A stretch of 27,314 bases of DNA from IMG/VR virus record IMGVR_UViG_3300044635_001885, positions 1 through 27,314 of that record. One strand, 5' to 3'. Positions 1-22,380 of the stretch are shown here, piece by piece. This stretch comes from a virus. The position numbers and the translations under genes are program-made. Position 1 is the stretch's first letter, and each line of letters opens with the position of its first letter. The notes beneath the pieces are model-generated. The model searched no databases, was not told where the DNA came from, and worked only from the letters and a program-made list of their open reading frames with translations.

Positions 1-1
1 C

Positions 2-556
2 AAGACCGTGCGTCGGTGCCTCGAGGCCGTCCTGCGGTGCGACGAGATTGTCCTGCTCCCAGGCTGGGAGAACAGCCAGGGGGCTCTCGCCGAGCTTGCC
101 ATAGCTGCCTGGATGGGCAAGCGAGTCTGGCAAGGCTACAACGACGAACAGGGCAGTCCGTCGATAAAGTTTTGTTTTATGGACAACAGGGGCCTCGCCT
201 TTTCCCTGTCCGAGGCCTTTTGGCCTAATGCTGTCGTGTCCCACGAGACGCAGAAATTTATCTCGCACTTCGACGACAACCACAAAGACGACGAAGACAT
301 CCTGGCCGAAGCATTCCGGATCACGCGGGGCAGTCGCCAAGCTCAATACGGGCCACCCGATCAGGACTTCCGCCGGACCGCTGGCATGTGGTCGGCGTTG
401 TTCCTTTCCAAGCTCAAAGACGGCGTGACATTCGAGCCCCGAGACGTCGCACTGGCGATGATCTTGCTCAAGACCTCACGCGAGACGCACCAACGCAAGC
501 GGGACAACTGGGTCGACATCGCTGGGTACGCGAGCTGCGGGAGTCGGTGCAACTGA
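2..556 (+). CDS. DUF4406-DUF6378-like fusion protein (5' end outside window)
   Basis: The reading frame is open to the left edge, so the true start lies before the window; the GTG at 8 is only an internal codon. The visible N-terminal part (C-D-E-I-V-L-L-P-G-W-E-N-S-Q-G-A followed by A-E-L-A) matches the C-terminal half of DUF4406, a nucleoside 2-deoxyribosyltransferase-like fold common in phages. The C-terminal part from about residue 95, with R-G-S-R-Q-A-Q-Y-G-P-P-D-Q-D-F and R-D-N-W-V-D-I-A-G-Y-A, matches DUF6378, another phage domain of unknown role. A function in nucleotide or base metabolism is inference. The stop overlaps the next start as TGATG, so translation is probably coupled. Family recognition is from memory of motifs. 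Confidence 0.8.
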   Translation, partial: KTVRRCLEAVLRCDEIVLLPGWENSQGALAELAIAAWMGKRVWQGYNDEQGSPSIKFCFMDNRGLAFSLSEAFWPNAVVSHETQKFISHFDDNHKDDEDILAEAFRITRGSRQAQYGPPDQDFRRTAGMWSALFLSKLKDGVTFEPRDVALAMILLKTSRETHQRKRDNWVDIAGYASCGSRCN

Positions 557-645
557 TGGACCTAATCATTGCTGTTTGTGTCGTAGTGTTTTTCTGCGTC
601 ATCATTGCGCTCGGCGACGACGACTTTCGAGGGCCCTCGTTATGA
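556..645 (+). CDS. 29-residue single-pass membrane peptide
   Basis: This tiny frame begins at an ATG overlapping the previous stop (TGATG) and ends in a TGA overlapping the next ATG (ATGA at 642-645). Residues 3-19 are an unbroken hydrophobic stretch (L-I-I-A-V-C-V-V-V-F-F-C-V-I-I-A-L), followed by G-D-D-D and a short polar tail, as expected for one transmembrane helix. Being held between two coupled junctions is the best argument that it is translated. No homologue recognised. Roles such as a holin-type or host-envelope effector are possible but unsupported. Confidence 0.6.
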   Translation: MDLIIAVCVVVFFCVIIALGDDDFRGPSL

Positions 646-977
646 GCACCGACCACGACAATCCATTGAGCGTCGATGAGGCGATGGCCCTCATCGGCAA
701 ATGGGAGACGCATCCCGGTCTCCTGCTGGCGGTGTTCGACGCAGCCAGAAAGCTTCGCGACGAAGTCGAGGTGCTGCGTGACGAAGTCAAGCTACTGCGT
801 GACGCTAACAATCACATGCAGAAAAGCCAAGACGATCTGATTCGGATCATCGCGCAGCATGTCAGGGACAAGAAAGCCTTACAAACCGAGCTCGACCAGC
901 TCCGGGCCGTCGTGGCCCAGAACAACCAGAGCATCGCAGCCATCCTTTCGAGATGGATCAAACCTAGCACGAACTGA
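642..977 (+). CDS. 111-aa coiled-coil protein, unknown function
   Basis: I start it at the ATG at 642 because it overlaps the preceding stop by four bases; an upstream in-frame start at 576 would bury the whole 29-residue gene. From about residue 35 to 95 the protein is a continuous heptad-like helix with repeated L-R-D-E-V and L-L-R-D segments, consistent with a dimeric or higher coiled coil. No enzymatic motif is visible. It is probably cytoplasmic. The next gene begins 13 bases after its stop, in the same operon. Confidence 0.7.
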   Translation: MSTDHDNPLSVDEAMALIGKWETHPGLLLAVFDAARKLRDEVEVLRDEVKLLRDANNHMQKSQDDLIRIIAQHVRDKKALQTELDQLRAVVAQNNQSIAAILSRWIKPSTN

Positions 978-990
978 GGGCATTTAAACC

Positions 991-1236
991 ATGATGCTAT
1001 TTCGAGAACTACCAACCTTCCGACGGACCCGGCCCAGAGAAGCGGTCGGCAAAATTGTCGTCGAGCTTGGTTTCACGCGAGACTACTCTGCTGGCCCCGG
1101 ATGGAGAAGTCTTTCCTTCGGGATCTTTCGGATCAACCGGATTGCGGAGCCCGGAAGTTTCTTTTTTCGCGGAGACCACATCAGCGGATTCCGTCGACAG
1201 TATTGCGTTTGGCTTCCCGTCTACAGGGATCTTTAA
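991..1236 (+). CDS. Hypothetical basic protein, 81 aa
   Basis: The frame opens with ATGATG at 991, 13 bases after the coiled-coil gene, and closes three bases before the next start, so its packing matches the operon. The product is rich in Arg, Phe and aromatic residues (for example R-R-T-R-P-R-E and G-S-F-F-F-R-G-D) and has no motif I recognise. A competing frame at 1055-1252 overlaps it and would also overlap the next gene, which makes it the poorer choice. Confidence 0.5.
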   Translation: MMLFRELPTFRRTRPREAVGKIVVELGFTRDYSAGPGWRSLSFGIFRINRIAEPGSFFFRGDHISGFRRQYCVWLPVYRDL

Positions 1237-1239
1237 CCC

Positions 1240-1404
1240 ATGTTCAAACTAATCGGCATGCTGCTCGGCGGTGGAGCGATCCCCCGCGAAGCAGCTCGGG
1301 CCCGGAGCAACAACGGATGCTGGCCGGAGTTGCTTCAAATTTTCATCAGTATCATGGTGGGCGTGCTTGTGGCGCTCGCTGTACTGGCTTGTGGGGGGAT
1401 GTGA
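1240..1404 (+). CDS. 54-residue membrane peptide
   Basis: It starts three bases after the previous stop and ends in a TGA overlapping the HNH start (TGATG at 1402-1406). The N-terminus is M-F-K-L-I-G-M-L-L-G-G-G, the middle is polar and basic, and the C-terminal segment from about residue 31 (L-L-Q-I-F-I-S-I-M-V-G-V-L-V-A-L-A-V-L-A) is a clear transmembrane helix. Together with the 29-residue peptide this makes two membrane miniproteins in one short operon. Function unknown. Confidence 0.6.
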   Translation: MFKLIGMLLGGGAIPREAARARSNNGCWPELLQIFISIMVGVLVALAVLACGGM

Positions 1405-1697
1405 TGCCAATGAATCGCGACAAGTACCCAGCGGACTGGGAGCAGATCGCCACAGACCTCAAGGACCAAGTGGGCTGGAAGTGTGAGGGCTGCCGAAAGC
1501 AATGTCGCAAGCCGGGCGAACCGTTTGACACGCACCGACGGACTTTAACCGTGGCCCACATCAACCATGTCGAATCCGACTGCGATCTGGGTAACTTGGT
1601 CGCACTCTGCGCACCGTGCCACCTTGCCTATGATGCCCCAATGAAACGATTTCGACGCGTCGCAAGCAAACGAAAAACCAACGTTAGCGAGTCTTAG
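1404..1697 (+). CDS. HNH endonuclease
   Basis: This 97-residue protein carries a classic small HNH domain: an early Cys pair (W-K-C-E-G-C), the catalytic H-I-N-H after a short strand, then N-L-V-A-L-C-A-P-C-H with the second zinc-binding Cys pair and final His. Such nucleases cut double-stranded DNA. In many tailed phages a small HNH protein works with the terminase at the packaging site, but here the terminase is convergent and about 1 kb away, so that partnership is inference. I chose the ATG at 1404 because it overlaps the previous stop; GTG at 1401 is an alternative. The C-terminus is basic (R-F-R-R-V-A-S-K-R-K). Confidence 0.88.
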   Translation: MPMNRDKYPADWEQIATDLKDQVGWKCEGCRKQCRKPGEPFDTHRRTLTVAHINHVESDCDLGNLVALCAPCHLAYDAPMKRFRRVASKRKTNVSES

Positions 1698-1740
1698 CAA
1701 GACTCGCACAAGCCAGAAAAAACCAAAGGATTTTCCGTCC

Positions 1741-1765
1741 GTGGTCCTAGTTGTGGTCCTGGGTT
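1741..1765. repeat. 12-bp tandem direct repeat in intergenic gap
   Basis: The gap at 1698-1800 between the HNH gene and the next gene contains two copies of gtggtcctagtt-type sequence back to back (1741-1752 and 1753-1764), differing by one base at the ninth position. It could be a protein-binding site or a promoter-proximal element for the two following genes. No convincing -10/-35 pair was found around it. Confidence 0.4.
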
Positions 1766-1780
1766 ATCCGTAGACTACAA

Positions 1781-1803
1781 GCAGCAAACAGGGGGAAACC
1801 ATG
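1781..1803 (+). promoter_or_regulatory. Translation-initiation region repeated upstream of two genes
   Basis: gcagcaaacaggggg followed by aaaccATG provides a purine-rich ribosome-binding site for the gene at 1801. Almost the same string (gcagcaaacagtggag plus aaaccATG, 2145-2168) precedes the next gene at 2166. The match covers roughly 21 of 24 positions with one gap, so the initiation region seems to have been duplicated. Confidence 0.6.
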
Positions 1804-2169
1804 GCAGCGTTTGATCACGACAAGATCCAGCAGATGCGAACGATGGAGAACTGGTCCGAACTCCAGGAGGACGACCATCATCGACAAATGCGGATCGCTA
1901 AATTCATTTTGAGCCTAGCGCGAGTTGCCAACGATCTACAGGCATTGCGACACTCGTATTCGATAATTCATAGCGCGCGAGCATCCACCCAAGCCCAAGT
2001 GCAAGGTTCGTTTAACGCTCGGCAAGCGATGGATGAGTTGGAATTCATGATCCGACAGCACTCCATTCAAACATTTGGCAAAGACATCTTCTTGCCTGGA
2101 GACCCTACGGAACTCAGATCACCCACTCTTCCGCCTGAGGGCCCGCAGCAAACAGTGGAGAAACCATGA
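1801..2169 (+). CDS. Hypothetical helical protein, 122 aa, with S-P-T-L-P-P-E-G-P tail
   Basis: A purine-rich ribosome-binding site (aggggga) lies just before the ATG. The first 100 residues look mostly helical and charged (M-R-T-M-E-N-W-S-E-L-Q-E-D-D, R-Q-A-M-D-E-L-E-F-M-I-R-Q), with no recognised domain. The last 20 residues come from a 32-bp DNA repeat that also occurs at the terminase 3' end (see repeat entries) and encodes S-P-T-L-P-P-E-G-P-Q here. The stop overlaps the next start as ATGA. Function unknown. Confidence 0.75.
   Translation: MAAFDHDKIQQMRTMENWSELQEDDHHRQMRIAKFILSLARVANDLQALRHSYSIIHSARASTQAQVQGSFNARQAMDELEFMIRQHSIQTFGKDIFLPGDPTELRSPTLPPEGPQQTVEKP
2118..2149. repeat. 32-bp repeat, copy 1
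   Basis: This copy (atcacccactcttccgcctg followed by agggcccgcagc) is identical to copy 3 at 2597-2628. It lies in the 3' end of the gene at 1801-2169 and encodes S-P-T-L-P-P-E-G-P-Q. On the opposite strand the same bases spell the terminal residues of the terminase, L-R-A-L-R-R-K-S-G and stop. Confidence 0.9.
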
Positions 2170-2636
2170 CACATCCGGACAAGTTAATTGGAGTCACTGA
2201 GGTCAACGGCATTGGCACTAGGCACATGTCATTCCGTACACAGATGACGAAAGATCAGTTTTTTGAAGCCATGAACGAACAGGGCAGGGTGTTCAAGCTT
2301 GAGATGCGTAGCTGGGACGCAGAGACGGGTGAAGCGGAAATTACCCTCGTGCCTGAAAACGGACTGATGGCGTGGTACGAGGGGCACAACCCGCCGATCG
2401 AAGACGAATCACCCACTCTTCCGCCTGAGGACCCTCATCTGGCGAGGAGCAATCTAGGATGCTTCATCAAAACGTACTTTCCAAAAGCGGAATTCGGAAT
2501 GGACATCGCGGCGTTCGCTGCTCGCACTCGAGCCGACCGGAACAATCACTTCCTCGACTCGACGAGCCTAGCCGAATTGGTACTAAAAAAAGACCCATCA
2601 CCCACTCTTCCGCCTGAGGGCCCGCAGCTCGGCTAG
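2166..2636 (+). CDS. Hypothetical 156-aa protein with terminase-derived segments
   Basis: The start overlaps the previous stop (ATGA), preceded by gtggag. Three parts are visible: an N-terminal domain of about 80 residues (D-K-L-I-G-V-T-E-V-N-G ... E-I-T-L-V-P-E-N-G) with alternating strands and a helix; a linker containing S-P-T-L-P-P-E-D-P from repeat copy 2; and a second segment with R-N-N-H-F-L-D-S-T-S-L-A that copies the terminase motif R-D-N-H-F-L-D-A-T-I-L-A, ending in S-P-T-L-P-P-E-G-P from repeat copy 3. Its last 39 bases overlap the 3' end of the convergent terminase gene. Possibly a patchwork gene built partly by copying terminase DNA. A role as a terminase mimic or regulator is speculation. 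Confidence 0.7.
   Translation: MTHPDKLIGVTEVNGIGTRHMSFRTQMTKDQFFEAMNEQGRVFKLEMRSWDAETGEAEITLVPENGLMAWYEGHNPPIEDESPTLPPEDPHLARSNLGCFIKTYFPKAEFGMDIAAFAARTRADRNNHFLDSTSLAELVLKKDPSPTLPPEGPQLG
2408..2439. repeat. 32-bp repeat, copy 2 (diverged end)
   Basis: The first 23 bases (2408-2430) match copies 1 and 3 exactly; the last nine (accctcatc versus gcccgcagc) differ at three positions. It is in the same reading frame as the other copies, giving S-P-T-L-P-P-E-D-P-H inside the 156-aa protein. Confidence 0.85.
2538..2574. repeat. Inverted copy of terminase nuclease-motif DNA (partner 2834-2870)
   Basis: The plus strand at 2538-2574 matches the minus strand of 2870-2834 at 33 of 37 positions. Both are read in the same codon frame in their own genes: R-N-N-H-F-L-D-S-T-S-L-A in the 156-aa protein and R-D-N-H-F-L-D-A-T-I-L-A in the terminase. 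Three of the four differences change the amino acid. Confidence 0.85.
2597..2628. repeat. 32-bp repeat, copy 3 (in terminase 3' end)
   Basis: Identical to copy 1. It lies in the overlap of the two convergent genes: on the minus strand it supplies the last codons and stop of the terminase, on the plus strand the S-P-T-L-P-P-E-G-P tail of the 156-aa protein. It is therefore the likely source of copies 1 and 2. Confidence 0.9.
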
Positions 2637-4859
2637 CGTCATCTTGCCATCGTTGGGCCGCTTGGCGATCTTCTCGACGGCTTCGACTCGCTGCTCGACG
2701 GGGGACGGATCTCGGGATTGATCCTGCTCGGGTCGATCCTGTCCGGATCGGTCGGACATGGAAATCTTGCGTCGGCGTACCACTCGATCGGACTCGCCAG
2801 GGACCTTCACCCCCAGGATCGATGCACCTACAGCGGCTAGGATCGTCGCGTCAAGGAAGTGATTGTCCCGTCCTGGCCTGCATCCCCACTCAAACAGCTC
2901 TCTGCCTTGCCCCTGAGTCTTCGTGGGGTATTCTGCAGAAAGGTTGTCAGCGATCATGCGGTGACGCAGCGGGGCAGCTCTGTAGAGCCACCAAGCACCA
3001 GGCTCCCCGGCATCGGTAGTCCAGCGTTCCATCATGGCCGTCTTCCAACTGTTGGTGTCTACGAGGCAGTACCTCGGAGCTCGGGTCCCTCGGGTCGGTG
3101 GCATGCGCCAGCCAAACCCCATACGCTCCCCGGCTTTCTTTTTTTCTTGGTTCCAGGGGCGTTGTCTGGCAGTGACTCCCTTACCATGGCTCGGAACCAC
3201 GTGCTGATGCATTTGAGAGAATCGATAGACGACTTCGCTTTGAAACCCTGCATCCACGACCATGATCTCAGGCCGGAACTGCGTCCCGTCGTCGCGCGTG
3301 TAAATCACCGCTTGTCGCTCGTCTCGGAGCTTGCCGAGCGCGACCAATAGCGACTCGGTAGAGGACCTAATTCCGGTGGCTCGTATGATAGTCCGATCGA
3401 TGTCGGCGAGGGTGACATAATCGATTCCAGGGTCGGGCCAGATACCATAATCGACGACGAGGCCGGAGAAGTCGGCTCCGACACCGGCAATGACCCACCA
3501 CAGCGAGGATCCTTGAACGTCGACCCCCAGGGTGATGTGCTCGACCCAGTCGGGGATTTCCCCGCGGCGGTGGGTCGGGAGTATCCGCAAGCAGAACTCG
3601 TCGGAGGTCAGGCAGCGGATGCCATCGACGGCAACAATCGATTTCTTGGGTTCATTCTGATACTCTGCGTCAAAGGTGTCCGGATTATCGAAGCGCAGAT
3701 TCTCGGCGTGCTGGATCGCCGAAATCTCGTGAGGAAACTTGCGATGTGCCCAGCCCACCCGGGACCCTGCGTCCATCGCTTCGCGGTTGGCCTTGTAAAA
3801 CTTGTTGCCCTTGGGATGCTCGTCGTTTCCTTCGGCGATCTCTTCGGCGCGGATGTCGAAGTACTTTGTCCACAATTCCCGGTTTGTCGGCCACTCATAG
3901 ACCAGCCGGCATCGATCGCCGTGCCATTTGGGCATGAGCTTGTGGTTTAGCATCCGGTCAGCTACGTCGCCCTCTCGGATCACGGTGACGGCCGCAAAGC
4001 CTGCGATTCGTTTCCCAGGCCCACCAAGGCCTAGGATTGCGCCCCCGATCACCTTTTCCCGCTTGGCACATTCCGCGTCGGACAGTGCCGAAGTGTCGGT
4101 CTGTGGGTCGTTGACGAGCACGAAACTAGGTCGAATTGTCTTGCCGTCGGCGAGTACCTTCTGCATGCCTCGGACTCGCCCAAGGATTCCGGTGCAGCGA
4201 ATAATTGCCCCAGCCGCCTGCGATCCCTCTATCGTCGGAAACACGAGCTCTTTCCGACGCCATCCAATCAGCGTTCGCTTGCCCTGGGTCGTCTGCGCGT
4301 TGCCTCGCTGGGTGATTCCCTCGAGGCATCGGATCGGAAAAGCGATCTCAGGAAAATCCTCCAGGAGCAGTGGATTGGTTTCCCACTCCATTTTGATCAC
4401 ATCGAGCGATTCCTCGGCAGCACCTTCGTCGGCTTCGACTAGGACTCCGAATCGCTGATGTCCATAGGACAGCACCCAGAGCAGGGCTCGCAACAGGACA
4501 GTTGTCTTGCCACTCCCTCGCGGCATGGCGATGCACTTCAAGCTTCCGTTGATCGCTCGCTCTTCGATTTCCTTGAGGATCCGCTCATGGTCCTCACTGA
4601 ACGGCAGCGGGAAGGACTCTTTGAAGTACGTCAGAAGGTACTTCTTGAGATTGAGCCGACAGGACTCTCGTCGCTTAGGATTGACGATCGCCGGAATCGG
4701 CCCGATGTCTCTGGCCTCGGTCGATTCCTCTTTGGCTTTGGAGGCCTGGCGTTTGCGGTGCTTGGCGTAAGAGTCCTTGGGACGCTCCGAGCCAGACTCG
4801 TTGTCGTCGTCCTCGGGATCCTCGGGAGCTGCTGCGGCTGGCGGTCGCTTCTTTGCCAT
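2598..4859 (-). CDS. Terminase large subunit, lambda gpA type
   Basis: The packaging motor and nuclease translocates phage DNA into the prohead and cuts it. The 753-residue protein has an acidic/basic low-complexity N-terminus (about residues 1-55), then an ATPase domain with Walker A P-R-G-S-G-K-T-T at 113-120 and a Walker B-like F-V-L-V-N-D-P-Q at 246-253. The C-terminal nuclease domain has T-L-G-V-D-V-Q-G, I-M-V-V-D-A-G-F and D-N-H-F-L-D (665-670), the expected acidic strand ends of the gpA family. The last 60 residues are charged. I chose the ATG at 4859 because it overlaps the upstream stop (TGATG); the frame runs on to 4982 but that would overlap the zinc-ribbon gene. It is the last gene of the late operon, an unusual place for a terminase. 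No small subunit was recognised. Confidence 0.95.
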   Translation of the reverse strand: MAKKRPPAAAAPEDPEDDDNESGSERPKDSYAKHRKRQASKAKEESTEARDIGPIPAIVNPKRRESCRLNLKKYLLTYFKESFPLPFSEDHERILKEIEERAINGSLKCIAMPRGSGKTTVLLRALLWVLSYGHQRFGVLVEADEGAAEESLDVIKMEWETNPLLLEDFPEIAFPIRCLEGITQRGNAQTTQGKRTLIGWRRKELVFPTIEGSQAAGAIIRCTGILGRVRGMQKVLADGKTIRPSFVLVNDPQTDTSALSDAECAKREKVIGGAILGLGGPGKRIAGFAAVTVIREGDVADRMLNHKLMPKWHGDRCRLVYEWPTNRELWTKYFDIRAEEIAEGNDEHPKGNKFYKANREAMDAGSRVGWAHRKFPHEISAIQHAENLRFDNPDTFDAEYQNEPKKSIVAVDGIRCLTSDEFCLRILPTHRRGEIPDWVEHITLGVDVQGSSLWWVIAGVGADFSGLVVDYGIWPDPGIDYVTLADIDRTIIRATGIRSSTESLLVALGKLRDERQAVIYTRDDGTQFRPEIMVVDAGFQSEVVYRFSQMHQHVVPSHGKGVTARQRPWNQEKKKAGERMGFGWRMPPTRGTRAPRYCLVDTNSWKTAMMERWTTDAGEPGAWWLYRAAPLRHRMIADNLSAEYPTKTQGQGRELFEWGCRPGRDNHFLDATILAAVGASILGVKVPGESDRVVRRRKISMSDRSGQDRPEQDQSRDPSPVEQRVEAVEKIAKRPNDGKMTLAELRALRRKSG

Positions 4860-5086
4860 CAGTATCGGCTCGGCCTTTGGCGTGGAATACCATGCTTGGG
4901 GGCACAGTTGCATTGACGGTAGTACCAAGTGATCCGCTCTCGAGTGGAGGCGGCTTTGTACTTGGCTCCACAGCAGGGGCATGTGGGCGCTGTGCCTCTA
5001 GCCTGCCTGCGGTATCGTCCGTGTGGACTGGAATTGTGGGGCATGAGATGTTGCATCTCAGCATTCAGTTCGGCGAATACGACCAT
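4859..5086 (-). CDS. Small zinc-ribbon protein upstream of terminase
   Basis: This 75-residue protein has a C-P-C-C-G motif (about residue 36) and a second cluster Q-C-N-C about 20 residues later, typical of a zinc ribbon. An AGGAGG sequence sits ten bases before the ATG at 5086, one of the few good Shine-Dalgarno sites here, which supports this start despite a 22-base overlap with the upstream gene. The stop overlaps the terminase start. Its position suggests a DNA- or terminase-binding helper, possibly in place of a classical small subunit, but this is inference. Confidence 0.7.
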   Translation of the reverse strand: MVVFAELNAEMQHLMPHNSSPHGRYRRQARGTAPTCPCCGAKYKAASTRERITWYYRQCNCAPKHGIPRQRPSRY

Positions 5087-12064: not shown

Positions 12065-12756
12065 GGGGTGAACTTCTCCACAGCAACGAACGGATCCTCG
12101 TAGTACACTCGAGTCAATTCGACGCCGGCAGCATTGTGGACAGCCACCGAGTACCGGTACTCTCCGGGCACCAGTCCGCCCGAGGTCGCTCGAGGCATCT
12201 CGCACGTGAGCGACCATTTCCCCGATCCGATGTCCGCAGCGGTGCCAGTGACGGCGAATGGGTTGGTCCCGTTGGTTCCACCGAAGTGGACCGTGACAGC
12301 ACCGGCCGACATGCCTGGGATCGCGGAGATCGTCCAGACGAATGCGGTACCATGGGCCACAAGGTAATCATCGCCGATGACGATCTGGTCGACCGTGCCT
12401 TTGGCGGTGACTGGGCCAGCATAAGAGACCTTGCCCGATTGAATCGTGTTGGTTTTGGCGGCAATCACATTCTCGAGCGACAGGTAGCGAGAATGCTCGA
12501 CTGGAATCACTTGGACGCCAGATGTTGCGGACTCGGGAAAAAAGTCTGCTGTGGTGCCGTTGGTTTCGCCTGCGGTGACATCAAAAAGGTAGTAGCCGTC
12601 CTCCATCTCGGTCGGATTGGTATCGGCGAGCGCAGCACGAGCACCGCCGTCGAGCGAGACTCGGCAAGTGATCTGCGCAGCACCGCCAGTCACCGGAGCA
12701 TTGGTTGTCCGGTTAAAAGCGAAGACCTTGAGTGTTCCGGCAGTGTTTCGGTACAT
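12061..12756 (-). CDS. Virion/tail-associated protein, 231 aa
   Basis: Starts at the ATG at 12756, two bases past the previous stop. The N-terminal half (Y-R-N-T-A-G-T-L-K-V-F-A-F-N-R-T-T-N-A-P, then Y-Y-L-F-D-V-T-A-G-E-T-N) is a pattern I have seen in siphovirus tail-region proteins of unknown role. The C-terminal half looks like an Ig-like domain (G-E-Y-R-Y-S-V-A-V-H-N-A-A-G-V-E). Likely on the virion; a receptor-binding or adhesin-like role is inference. Confidence 0.65.
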   Translation of the reverse strand: MYRNTAGTLKVFAFNRTTNAPVTGGAAQITCRVSLDGGARAALADTNPTEMEDGYYLFDVTAGETNGTTADFFPESATSGVQVIPVEHSRYLSLENVIAAKTNTIQSGKVSYAGPVTAKGTVDQIVIGDDYLVAHGTAFVWTISAIPGMSAGAVTVHFGGTNGTNPFAVTGTAADIGSGKWSLTCEMPRATSGGLVPGEYRYSVAVHNAAGVELTRVYYEDPFVAVEKFTP

Positions 12757-12758
12757 AA

Positions 12759-13175
12759 TTAGGTGAGGGTCAGGAGTCCATTGACTTGGTCGAAGTCGAG
12801 CGTGATTGCTTCGCCAGCAAGCAGGGTGATTGAGTCTCCACGGTCGTACCATCCGATCAACGGCTTGGCTGGGCTGGTCTGCGTGTCGTCGTAGACAGCG
12901 ACGTAACGGAACGGGCCGACAGATCCTCCCGAAGCGGTGATCACCAGGTCAGCCACGGTGAGCTTGTACACTCCACCGGTCTGAGTGCTGCTGCTGGTCG
13001 TCAGATTGCGAGTGCTGGCGTTGGTGTAACTGATCTGCGTTAGATCGGCCAAAACCGCATTGGTAGCGACAGGAGCGACGTTGGTCAGTGCGACGGCGAG
13101 CTGATCCGATGCAAGGTTAATCTTGCCTTCGGCGACATTTTTGGCGAACGATTGGAACTTGTTGGCTTCGGCCAT
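12759..13175 (-). CDS. Small virion protein, 138 aa
   Basis: The pattern A-L-T-N-V-A-P-V-A-T-N-A-V-L-A-D-L-T-Q-I followed by S-S-S-T-Q-T-G-G-V-Y-K-L, S-G-G-S-V-G-P-F-R-Y-V and P-L-I-G-W-Y-D-R-G-D-S-I-T-L is common to a family of small phage structural proteins with a beta-sandwich appearance. Adjacent to the LamG gene with no gap. Probably a tail-fibre or capsid-decoration component; no precise role known to me. Confidence 0.7.
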   Translation of the reverse strand: MAEANKFQSFAKNVAEGKINLASDQLAVALTNVAPVATNAVLADLTQISYTNASTRNLTTSSSTQTGGVYKLTVADLVITASGGSVGPFRYVAVYDDTQTSPAKPLIGWYDRGDSITLLAGEAITLDFDQVNGLLTLT

Positions 13176-14405
13176 TTACTGAGGTCCTCGCATCATAAAC
13201 AGGTAGTAGTAGGGGGCGACTCCAGACGCAGAGTCGCCGAGGTTTGCATCGGAGACGACTAGGATGTACTGGGCACCGTCGGCGGAGATCTTGCGATCGG
13301 CTAACAGCGACGCGGCAAAGTTGTCGAGTTGCAGTGCCATCGAGCCAGCATTGAGCTTGAGCGATCGCAGCAGCTCGGCATTGTTGCCAGCCAGGAAACA
13401 GACCGCTTGGTCCGCCGTAAGCTTTCGATTCGCGATCAGTCCAGCATCAGTGCCAGTTAGAGCGTAAGCCGCAGCTCCGCTGTCGAGCAGCCTCGCGCAG
13501 ATCGTCGCAGCATCGTTTCCGGTTGCGGTGTAGGAGTCCGGATCGACCGAGAGCAGGCGGCTTGCGGTAATGTTGGCCGCGTTGCCGGAGAGTATGTATT
13601 GAGCTTGATCGGCAGCAAGCAATCGACTCGCAAACAAGCCTGCTGCTTGACCCGTCAGACTGTAGTTGCCTGTCTCGCAAGCAAGCACCAAAGCGGCGAT
13701 GACCGCAGCGACACTGCGTCGTCTAGGTGGTTGCATGAGCAGTCCACCGCCACGGCCTTGCTCGTAGATGAACCGAACTTCGTTGGCGGTTAAACCTGCG
13801 TTCCAAACTGTGACGTCGTCGATCACGCCGGGAAAAGGAAAGGCATTAGAGAGATAGCCGTCCCCGATCGAATTGAGCGTAAAAGTCCCCGCCGCTAGCG
13901 TGAACGCACCAATCGAAACCCCGTCGACAAAAAGGTTGATTGTTGAAATTGCGGCAGTGCTAGGTGTTGAAAAAATGCAATAGTGTCTAAATGTCGTGAA
14001 TGTCGTAAGGTTAAACTCGACGTTCCCGATCGGCGTTTGAAAACGCAGATAGTTTCCCGATCGAAACCAAATATAGCTGTTCGCGGTTGTGCTATTTCCG
14101 ATCGGCATCCCAATCGCCCCCGCACCCCTTTGTTGGGCCCAAAACGATATGGCAAAATCGAGGGTGTTTAGGTTCAAGGTGTTGACTGCGACACGATCAT
14201 TAACACCGTCAAAATTCAAAGCGGTTCGATCTTGGACTGCGACATACGCATCGTTGCCGTTGTTCGCAAAGTTGGTTAGGGTGCCATGATTCCGGCCCAC
14301 TGTGTCCGGCAATTGCAACCCAGTGTTGCCCGAAAAAGACGGACACCACCGACCGACGATTCGGCTTTGCAGACTTTCCCATTCCGGCCCGTAGTATGCG
14401 AGCAT
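13176..14405 (-). CDS. LamG-like lectin domain protein with 22-residue repeats
   Basis: The 409-residue protein has a concanavalin-like (LamG/laminin G-type) domain at about residues 20-220: A-L-N-F-D-G-V-N-D-R-V-A-V, F-A-I-S-F-W-A-Q, L-F-V-D-G-V-S-I-G and F-P-G-V-I-D-D-V-T-V-W-N-A are its hallmark strands. From about residue 250 there are six and a half repeats of 22 residues with the consensus Y-x-L-T-G-x-x-A-x-L-x-A-x-R-x-L, degenerate toward the end. LamG domains bind glycans, so a receptor-recognition fibre is likely. The start at 14405 makes a TAATG overlap with the upstream gene. Confidence 0.85.
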   Translation of the reverse strand: MLAYYGPEWESLQSRIVGRWCPSFSGNTGLQLPDTVGRNHGTLTNFANNGNDAYVAVQDRTALNFDGVNDRVAVNTLNLNTLDFAISFWAQQRGAGAIGMPIGNSTTANSYIWFRSGNYLRFQTPIGNVEFNLTTFTTFRHYCIFSTPSTAAISTINLFVDGVSIGAFTLAAGTFTLNSIGDGYLSNAFPFPGVIDDVTVWNAGLTANEVRFIYEQGRGGGLLMQPPRRRSVAAVIAALVLACETGNYSLTGQAAGLFASRLLAADQAQYILSGNAANITASRLLSVDPDSYTATGNDAATICARLLDSGAAAYALTGTDAGLIANRKLTADQAVCFLAGNNAELLRSLKLNAGSMALQLDNFAASLLADRKISADGAQYILVVSDANLGDSASGVAPYYYLFMMRGPQ

Positions 14406-21336: not shown

Positions 21337-22380
21337 TTACAAATCAGCCTTCGCCCAGTCCGAGTCCGGAATGATCGCATAACTGGTCATCGCGACTTTT
21401 TCCGAGTTGCCGATCCACTTCGAAGCGGTCGCAAGTCCGAAGGCAGTGATCAGTTCCGTCTCTCGAGTGGCTCGCATCGAATGCCAAGGCACCGGCCATG
21501 GATCGAGTCCTGCCTTGCGAACAACCTCGAGAAATCGCTGTGTGATCCCCGAGTGCGAGAGGCTTGCGATCGTCGGCAGCAGCTCGACGCCTGGTGCGGG
21601 GAGCTCGGCAGCGATCTCACGGAATAGCGGGATCTCTCGGACCATCCCTCGCTTGGTGTCTGTGATCTTGATCCGTTTTAAGCCCCGGTCGATCGATGCT
21701 TGCGTGAAGTCGCGAATCTCGCTGGAAATCCGCAGGCCTCCGAATCGAGACAGCACAATCACAAGCCGCAGCTCAGGATCGTCGCAGGCCTGGAGGACTC
21801 GCTCGATGGTCTCCACCGAAACGAATCGTTTCTCTCGCACTGAGACCGTGGTCTTGAGTCGCTTGGCCGGATTGGCAACGATCCACCGATTGTCCTCGCA
21901 CCAGCGAAAGAAAGCTTTCCAATCCTTGGCGATTTTTCCCCGAGTGGACGCACCTTGCTCGAGCGCATCATAGACGGTGGCAATTTCCTCCGGGGACACT
22001 CCATCGATTCGCCGATCACCGCAGGCATCGGACAGATGGGCCAGAGATCGACCAACCGATTCGGCGGTCGATGTGGCAAGCAGATCTCGCTTGGCGTTGA
22101 GATACTCGTCGATCGCAGTCCGGACGGTGCGGATGGATCCGGTGATGCAAGTGAGCTTGGATTTGATTTCCTGGTCCAGACGATCGAGCCAAAGGGCTGT
22201 TTGCCTTGGGATGGGTAGGTCTGCGGTCTGGGCGGCGATGATCTCGTCGACATGTCGCTGGATGGCGATCGCTTCGGGCTCGGTGATGCGTCCGAGCCAG
22301 ATCGAGCGACGTCCGGCAGCGGTGTAGACTCGAAGGCGATAGCCTTGACGAGTCTTTGCCTCGTGCGTCAGCGAGCTCAC
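21337..22380 (-). CDS. Tyrosine recombinase (phage integrase family)
   Basis: The 347-residue protein has an N-terminal arm/core-binding region (about 1-175) and a C-terminal catalytic domain with Arg I in G-G-L-R-I (R217), Lys in T-D-T-K-R-G (K243), H-S-M-R-A-T (H300, R303) and Tyr in T-S-Y-A-I-I (Y334). The usual His/Trp before Tyr is Asn in W-I-G-N-S (N325), as I recall for many planctomycete recombinases. It starts with a GTG overlapping the portal stop (GTGA) and ends just before the capsid gene, so it is co-expressed with head genes. That placement is atypical for an integrase. It probably integrates or excises the genome, or resolves multimers; no att pair was found in the window. Confidence 0.92.
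   Translation of the reverse strand: MSSLTHEAKTRQGYRLRVYTAAGRRSIWLGRITEPEAIAIQRHVDEIIAAQTADLPIPRQTALWLDRLDQEIKSKLTCITGSIRTVRTAIDEYLNAKRDLLATSTAESVGRSLAHLSDACGDRRIDGVSPEEIATVYDALEQGASTRGKIAKDWKAFFRWCEDNRWIVANPAKRLKTTVSVREKRFVSVETIERVLQACDDPELRLVIVLSRFGGLRISSEIRDFTQASIDRGLKRIKITDTKRGMVREIPLFREIAAELPAPGVELLPTIASLSHSGITQRFLEVVRKAGLDPWPVPWHSMRATRETELITAFGLATASKWIGNSEKVAMTSYAIIPDSDWAKADL

Follow-up and report, generated by a model that had tools for sequence, protein, structure and literature searches.

In a phage clade, the terminase 3' end forms the fixed right edge of a hypervariable accessory operon

In the phages related to the window, a 27,314-base IMG/VR virus contig, a hypervariable accessory operon has the 3' end of the terminase gene as its fixed right edge. 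A terminase search gave 46 loci, and comparison of related loci (labelled L) showed that short recurring sequences were used repeatedly as joins, that the region between a hairpin and the terminase stop codon was refilled with different small genes, and that genes or blocks of genes were exchanged among lineages. The recurring joins are the terminase end (22–31 bp), a leader before start codons (approximately 15–20 bp) and, probably, the hairpin. Short-homology recombination at these conserved boundary sequences is the best mechanism that we infer, and a likely one. The following features were identified in this part of the window:

1687–1707, plus strand: hairpin GCGAGTCTTAGCAAGACTCGC, the single-copy left border of the cassette operon
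1783–1803, plus strand: leader AGCAAACAGGGGGAAACC-ATG (from the junction list), the second recurring boundary and the ribosome-binding-site region before cassette genes
1801–2169, plus strand: cassette gene A, 122 aa, no known family, with homologues in L022, L012, L046 and L048
2118–2149, plus strand: boundary copy 1, identical to ATCACCCACTCTTCCGCCTGAGGGCCCGCAGC in 32 of 32 bases
2150–2165, plus strand: leader AAACAGTGGAGAAACC, joined to copy 1 at the common GCAGC
2166–2636, plus strand: ORF of 156 aa, in which gene B (2166–2408) is fused in frame via copy 2 to module C and via copy 3 to the stop
2408–2439, plus strand: boundary copy 2, 29 of 32 bases shared with ATCACCCACTCTTCCGCCTGAGGGCCCGCAGC (three changes)
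2431–2597, plus strand: module C, a 167-bp insert also present in L040 between different neighbours (166/167 identity)
2597–2628, plus strand: boundary copy 3, ATCACCCACTCTTCCGCCTGAGGGCCCGCAGC, the reverse complement of the terminase 3' end
2598–4859, minus strand: terminase large subunit gene, GpA type (PF20454, E 7e-19)

Copy 3 starts one base past the TGA stop codon of the terminase, which occupies positions 2598–2600. A repeat search of the window grouped the three copies as one family. Their 22-bp core is exact in all three (2119–2140, 2409–2430 and 2598–2619), the number expected by chance being 0.00. The preliminary description had reported the 32-mer as recurring in the same frame, identically at copy 1 and with 29 of 32 bases at copy 2; this was borne out, far above chance, and the reported spacing of 158–259 bp between copies matches the sequence. 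Copies 2 and 3, however, are not the ends of separate genes: ORF 2166–2636 runs through copy 2 into module C and on through copy 3. Gene A extends across copy 1 and ends in an ATGA, where its stop codon and the start codon of gene B overlap. All three copies are used in the SPTLPPE phase by plus-strand ORFs. Arrays with three copies were also found in contigs of other samples (L054 and L055). The repeats thus come from several independent assemblies, which speaks against an artefact of assembly. The search of window positions 1–5000 against Rfam gave no match; a known RNA element is not supported.

All terminases of the closest clade end in LRALRRKSG and share the same core; L035 is one base off in the stop codon, and L035 and L012 also differ just past the core. 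Across 15 distinct terminases, the six final sense codons, LRRKSG, show no nucleotide change at all; this run is longer than any other of its kind among the last 440 codons, the next having four, and 71% of the codons with an invariant amino acid vary synonymously. The unchanged LRRKSG codons can come from homogenisation by recombination, from the overlap with the tails of neighbouring genes, or from both.

The 22-bp core has no exact match in the 84,980 species genomes of the GTDB collection. It was detected in 26 stretches of viral contigs, all from one phage clade, with one to four copies each. A dispersed repeat of the host chromosome, named in the preliminary description as the outcome that would refute its reading, was thus looked for and not found; it is ruled out by the lack of core matches in genome contigs. 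The copies sit only on the array side, between the single-copy hairpin and the terminase. Four copies were counted in L040, three in the window, L054 and L055, two in L034, L036 and L022, and one in the rest. More distant sister clades, whose terminase ends are different, showed no complete repeat of their own end; L048 keeps a ten-base piece of its terminase end before gene D. Among GenBank phages, no close relatives were found at the DNA level. A Planctomycetota MAG contig encoding a terminase with 41% identity is the sole host lead and is too weak to name the host.

Searches of Pfam, PHROGs and NCBIfam gave no usable match for A, B, B', D, F, H and C; family G weakly resembles a small DNA-binding regulator. 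The predicted structures of B' (pLDDT 49) and of A (pLDDT 67, with long helices) did not reach a quality that would permit a fold search. Distant homology links A and D (E 1.4e-4), and B and B' are homologues (35%), which reduces the number of independent joins to the terminase end from ten to about seven. Module C contains a piece of 33–37 nt that resembles the C-terminal coding sequence of the terminase in inverted orientation (arms 2538–2574 and 2834–2870, matching at 33 of 37 bases), and its stretch RADRNNHFLDSTSLA resembles the C-terminal motif of the terminase in 13 of 32 residues. Module C is possibly a gutted terminase fragment. A piece similar to the N-terminal part of the terminase is possibly also present besides the C-terminal-like one.

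The distance from the hairpin to the terminase stop varied from 112 to 1738 bp among relatives. Thirty-five loci yielded 20 distinct sequences and about 17 gene orders, some sequences having the same order. The small cassette genes always point at the terminase, and the same families recur in many orders, as listed below (hp, hairpin; s, exact or nearly exact core copy; T, terminase):

Window: hp-A-s-B-s-C-s-T
L014: hp-J-B-s-T
L058: hp-(three small genes)-G-B-s-T
L022: hp-E-A-s-B'-s-T
L012: hp-A-B'-s-T
L008: hp-M-G-E-B'-s-T
L031: hp-J-E-B'-s-T
L034: hp-G-J-K-s-B'-s-T
L040: hp-H-s-c3-s-C-s-D-s-T
L020: J-E-D-s-T (contig starts inside J)
L025: hp-N-G-s-T
L004: hp-F-s-T
L035: remnant of c3-s-T
L048: hp-A-D-T
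L046: hp-J-A-T
L042: hp-G-T
L045: G-F-T
L044: nearly empty

Contigs of the same cluster carry identical or near-identical arrays, so the turnover is not fast enough to produce differences inside a cluster. The last bases of one 39.6-kb contig, 3300042555_002174 (L074, L075; L005, L010), are exactly those of the boundary core, and this end overlaps with the start of the contig. The contig probably represents a complete circular map that was broken within the array, and the break possibly reflects several arrays coexisting in the sample.

Individual units are much more similar between phages than the terminases next to them. Module C of the window is 99.4% identical to that of L040, while the terminases share 86.9% identity. 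The corresponding values are 98.1% and 87.3% for unit A (window and L022), and 97.9% and 87.7% for unit B (window and L014). Units that are 97.9–99.4% identical beside terminases that are only 87–88% identical indicate that units move between lineages. Conversely, L008 and L031 have terminases with 99.0% identity and different arrays (M-G-E-B' versus J-E-B'), in which the E genes are only 91.6% identical. The exchanged segments thus show a history unlike that of their flanks. In L014, gene B meets the terminase end directly, without C; in the window, C lies exactly between two copies. The same short sequence therefore flanks the exchanged segment and is single in a relative lacking this segment.

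On its left side the repeat has a sharp edge, with unrelated families ending at A/TCA (the slash marks the joint; TCA is the terminase stop) or six bases earlier (GACCCA); in most families the repeat begins exactly at A/TCA, and the reading phase is constant in the read-through families. In L012, B' is 30 bases shorter and has the same stop-codon edge. The right edge is variable between arrays. The copy is joined to the leader as GCCCGCAGC/AAACAG in the window and in L040, as GCCCGGAGC/AAGGAGAC, that is GGAGC/AAGGAGAC, also in L040, and as GCCCGGAGCTCGG/AGAAGC, also given as GGAGCTCGG/AGAAGC, in L034. In L008, the own CCGCCCAAGG of gene E runs straight into GGGCCCGCAGCTCGG (GGGCCCGCAGC). Partial repeat copies occur in L008 and L048, and further joints lie in the leader AGCAAACAGGGGGAAACC right before start codons.

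The hairpin was present in one copy in each of 35 stretches and folds strongly (z -4.9). In the window, it encodes the in-frame tail NVSES* of an upstream HNH-like gene. The tail (A)KPNxSES, encoded by the hairpin and in frame, is common to several unrelated upstream genes, including the HNH-like gene of the window, a frame of approximately 163 codons (L033 and L046), a frame of approximately 175–190 codons (L042 and L048), and others. The hairpin is a second shared-tail boundary and probably acts as an exchange border. In our reading, this phage group generally exchanges material at short conserved borders, and the behaviour is not peculiar to one site. Between hairpin and leader, at approximately 1740–1765 of the window, a GTGGTCCTAGTTGTGGTCCT motif is repeated and is conserved in most relatives; it looks like a putative operator. 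A putative small regulator (family G) is present in the operon of some relatives.

Because the site is open in the SPTLPPE phase, adjacent units can be read as one protein. In L040, an ORF of 271 aa (12549–13364, minus strand) fuses H, c3 and C via three SPTLPPE linkers; its frame stays open because the sequence is one base shorter than its homologue at the start of gene A. Frameshift decay in the third unit of L040 was considered and rejected, since this ORF stays open. Two of six internal unit lengths are multiples of three, as chance predicts, so that fusion need not be selected.

The arrays would arise as follows if short-homology recombination is responsible. In phages replicating in one cell, recombination or annealing between short repeats may swap segments, and shorter microhomology, such as the GCAGC common to the terminase end and the leader, could assist. 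The final codons of the terminase have to be preserved, and every gene that joins at this point would therefore gain their antisense as a C-terminal tail. A donor segment already ending in the terminase end may join inside the recipient's terminase end, which would duplicate the repeat and stack genes; recombination between copies would delete the stacked genes again. These exchange events are reconstructed from comparison of contigs. A RecT/Erf-type annealing protein was not detected among the scanned ORFs of the near-complete 39.6-kb relative G004. The sharp left edge and the constant phase are a counterpoint to short-homology exchange, as a precise enzyme, too, would produce them.

Of the two origins that the preliminary description offered for the repeat, the addition of cassettes at a recombination site agrees with the one to four copies, the different and mostly unrelated genes between them and the mobility of units; local duplication does not. 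Repeated tandem duplication of the terminase end inside one lineage could account for the closeness and near-identity of the window copies and for the further terminase-like fragment within module C. However, the sequences between copies are mutually unrelated and occur singly in other phages, some internal copies in L034 and L040 mismatch their own terminase end (GCCCGG versus GCCCGC), and unit identities exceed genome identities, all of which make this origin very improbable. The term "recombination site" is best understood here as a boundary of short shared sequence rather than as a demonstrated recombinase target. The repeat may also be kept mainly for a useful C-terminal tail or inter-domain linker, SPTLPPEGP, exchange being incidental. 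This would agree with the single reading phase in all read-through families, with the three modules linked by SPTLPPE in the 271-aa ORF, and with the six last sense codons that are unchanged in 15 distinct terminases where 71% of comparable codons vary. The peptide is dispensable, however, because A, D, F and G of the sister clades end differently where the terminase end differs; moreover, this clade makes no use of the other low-cost phase (THSSA*), but a comparable phase is used in L045. We therefore regard selection for the peptide as quite unlikely.

Phages integrate into the 3' ends of genes, and this provides a model in which the terminase end is an attachment site. A tyrosine recombinase would insert circular cassettes at the terminase 3' end in an integron-like or XerCD-like manner, the attachment site being rebuilt each time. 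A conserved gene whose 3' end is exactly repeated, the presence of one gene per unit and the exact movement of module C from copy to copy fit such an enzyme, and near-complete relatives possess two tyrosine recombinases, one of them oddly placed between portal and capsid genes. In the window, this portal-side gene is located at 21337–22380 on the minus strand; its product is 75–97% identical in four relatives. The second recombinase, encoded elsewhere in the near-complete relatives, is approximately 30% identical to the first and matched only general phage integrase families. Against this model, the right-hand joins do not fall at a single base, L008 and L048 carry partial copies, the leader and hairpin junctions behave alike without the site, and the site lacks a fold. 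The window recombinase scored 13.1 bits with the integron integrase model TIGR02249 (cut-off 265), the portal-side recombinase is also present in G005 and G006, which have different terminase ends and no repeats, and both recombinases are possibly plain prophage integrases. Cassette insertion of this type is unlikely in our judgement. A related proposal, in which the terminase 3' end is a true attachment site where a phage tyrosine recombinase inserts, stacks and removes single-gene cassettes in a system that is integron-like but unrelated to integrons, and in which cassettes can also be read as a modular protein via the site-encoded SPTLPPE linker, is likewise unlikely. A dedicated site-specific recombinase, the main rival to short-homology recombination, is possible but unsupported. 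True integron attC sites were rejected, there being no motif, fold or integron integrase: the 32-mer contains neither GTT nor AAC and thus lacks the R''/R' boxes of attC (GTTRRRY), and neither strand gives a stable fold.

The arrays at the terminase end provide a clear natural series of phage module exchanges, with one to four copies and about 17 gene orders, dated by terminase divergence. The exchanges are traceable at one defined base position, while module joints of phages are usually untraceable. The end of an essential gene can serve as a hard edge for gene gain and loss, and its antisense can lend a tail or linker to neighbours that are unrelated, by which fused proteins can arise in a simple way. 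The arrays would represent a new cassette-capture system if a recombinase were responsible after all.

This kind of exchange is already known from mycobacteriophages. LRRHood, compared with Cali, contains an additional segment of 1.35 kb that is flanked by a 29-bp repeat from the extreme 3' end of a gene, and in Island3 two neighbouring genes have a common 3' end of 60 bp that is single in Brujita; both cases were ascribed to recombination at short shared sequences, with general recombination proposed as the process (PMC3029335). The arrays described here are similar in that a short 3'-end sequence flanks an extra segment and is single in relatives, and in that neighbours have a common 3' end. 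The mycobacteriophage cases comprise two copies and one event each, whereas up to four copies and many events at one spot occur here, and the repeat, which corresponds to the antisense end of a convergent core gene, supplies coding tails and linkers. In lambdoid phages, as cited in PMC3029335, short conserved sequences at module joints are thought to guide homologous recombination. Unlike those boundaries, the ones described here are partly coding, the terminase end and the hairpin lending C-terminal tails to neighbours. Promoter-stem-loop (PeSL) cassettes of T4-like phages are short recurring elements that shuffle small genes in a hyperplastic region, according to the account cited in PMC4503421, where gene gain and loss beside the packaging cut site is also discussed. 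The terminase-end repeat, in contrast, is neither a promoter nor a stem-loop, having no fold, and the lone hairpin is single copy. True attC sites and clusters of them, as in integrons, were reported in phages (PMC9892861). Arrays of single-gene units separated by a repeated site are shared with integrons, but attC structure and motif and an integron integrase are lacking here and the joins are variable. The start-associated sequences of cluster K mycobacteriophages are a short repeat directly before the start codons of small genes. The leader resembles them by position, and they are not known to be linked to the terminase. Less usual in the present phages is that a core gene contributes its 3' end in antisense, that arrays reach four copies, that unrelated proteins carry in-frame tails, and that three modules make up the 271-aa ORF.
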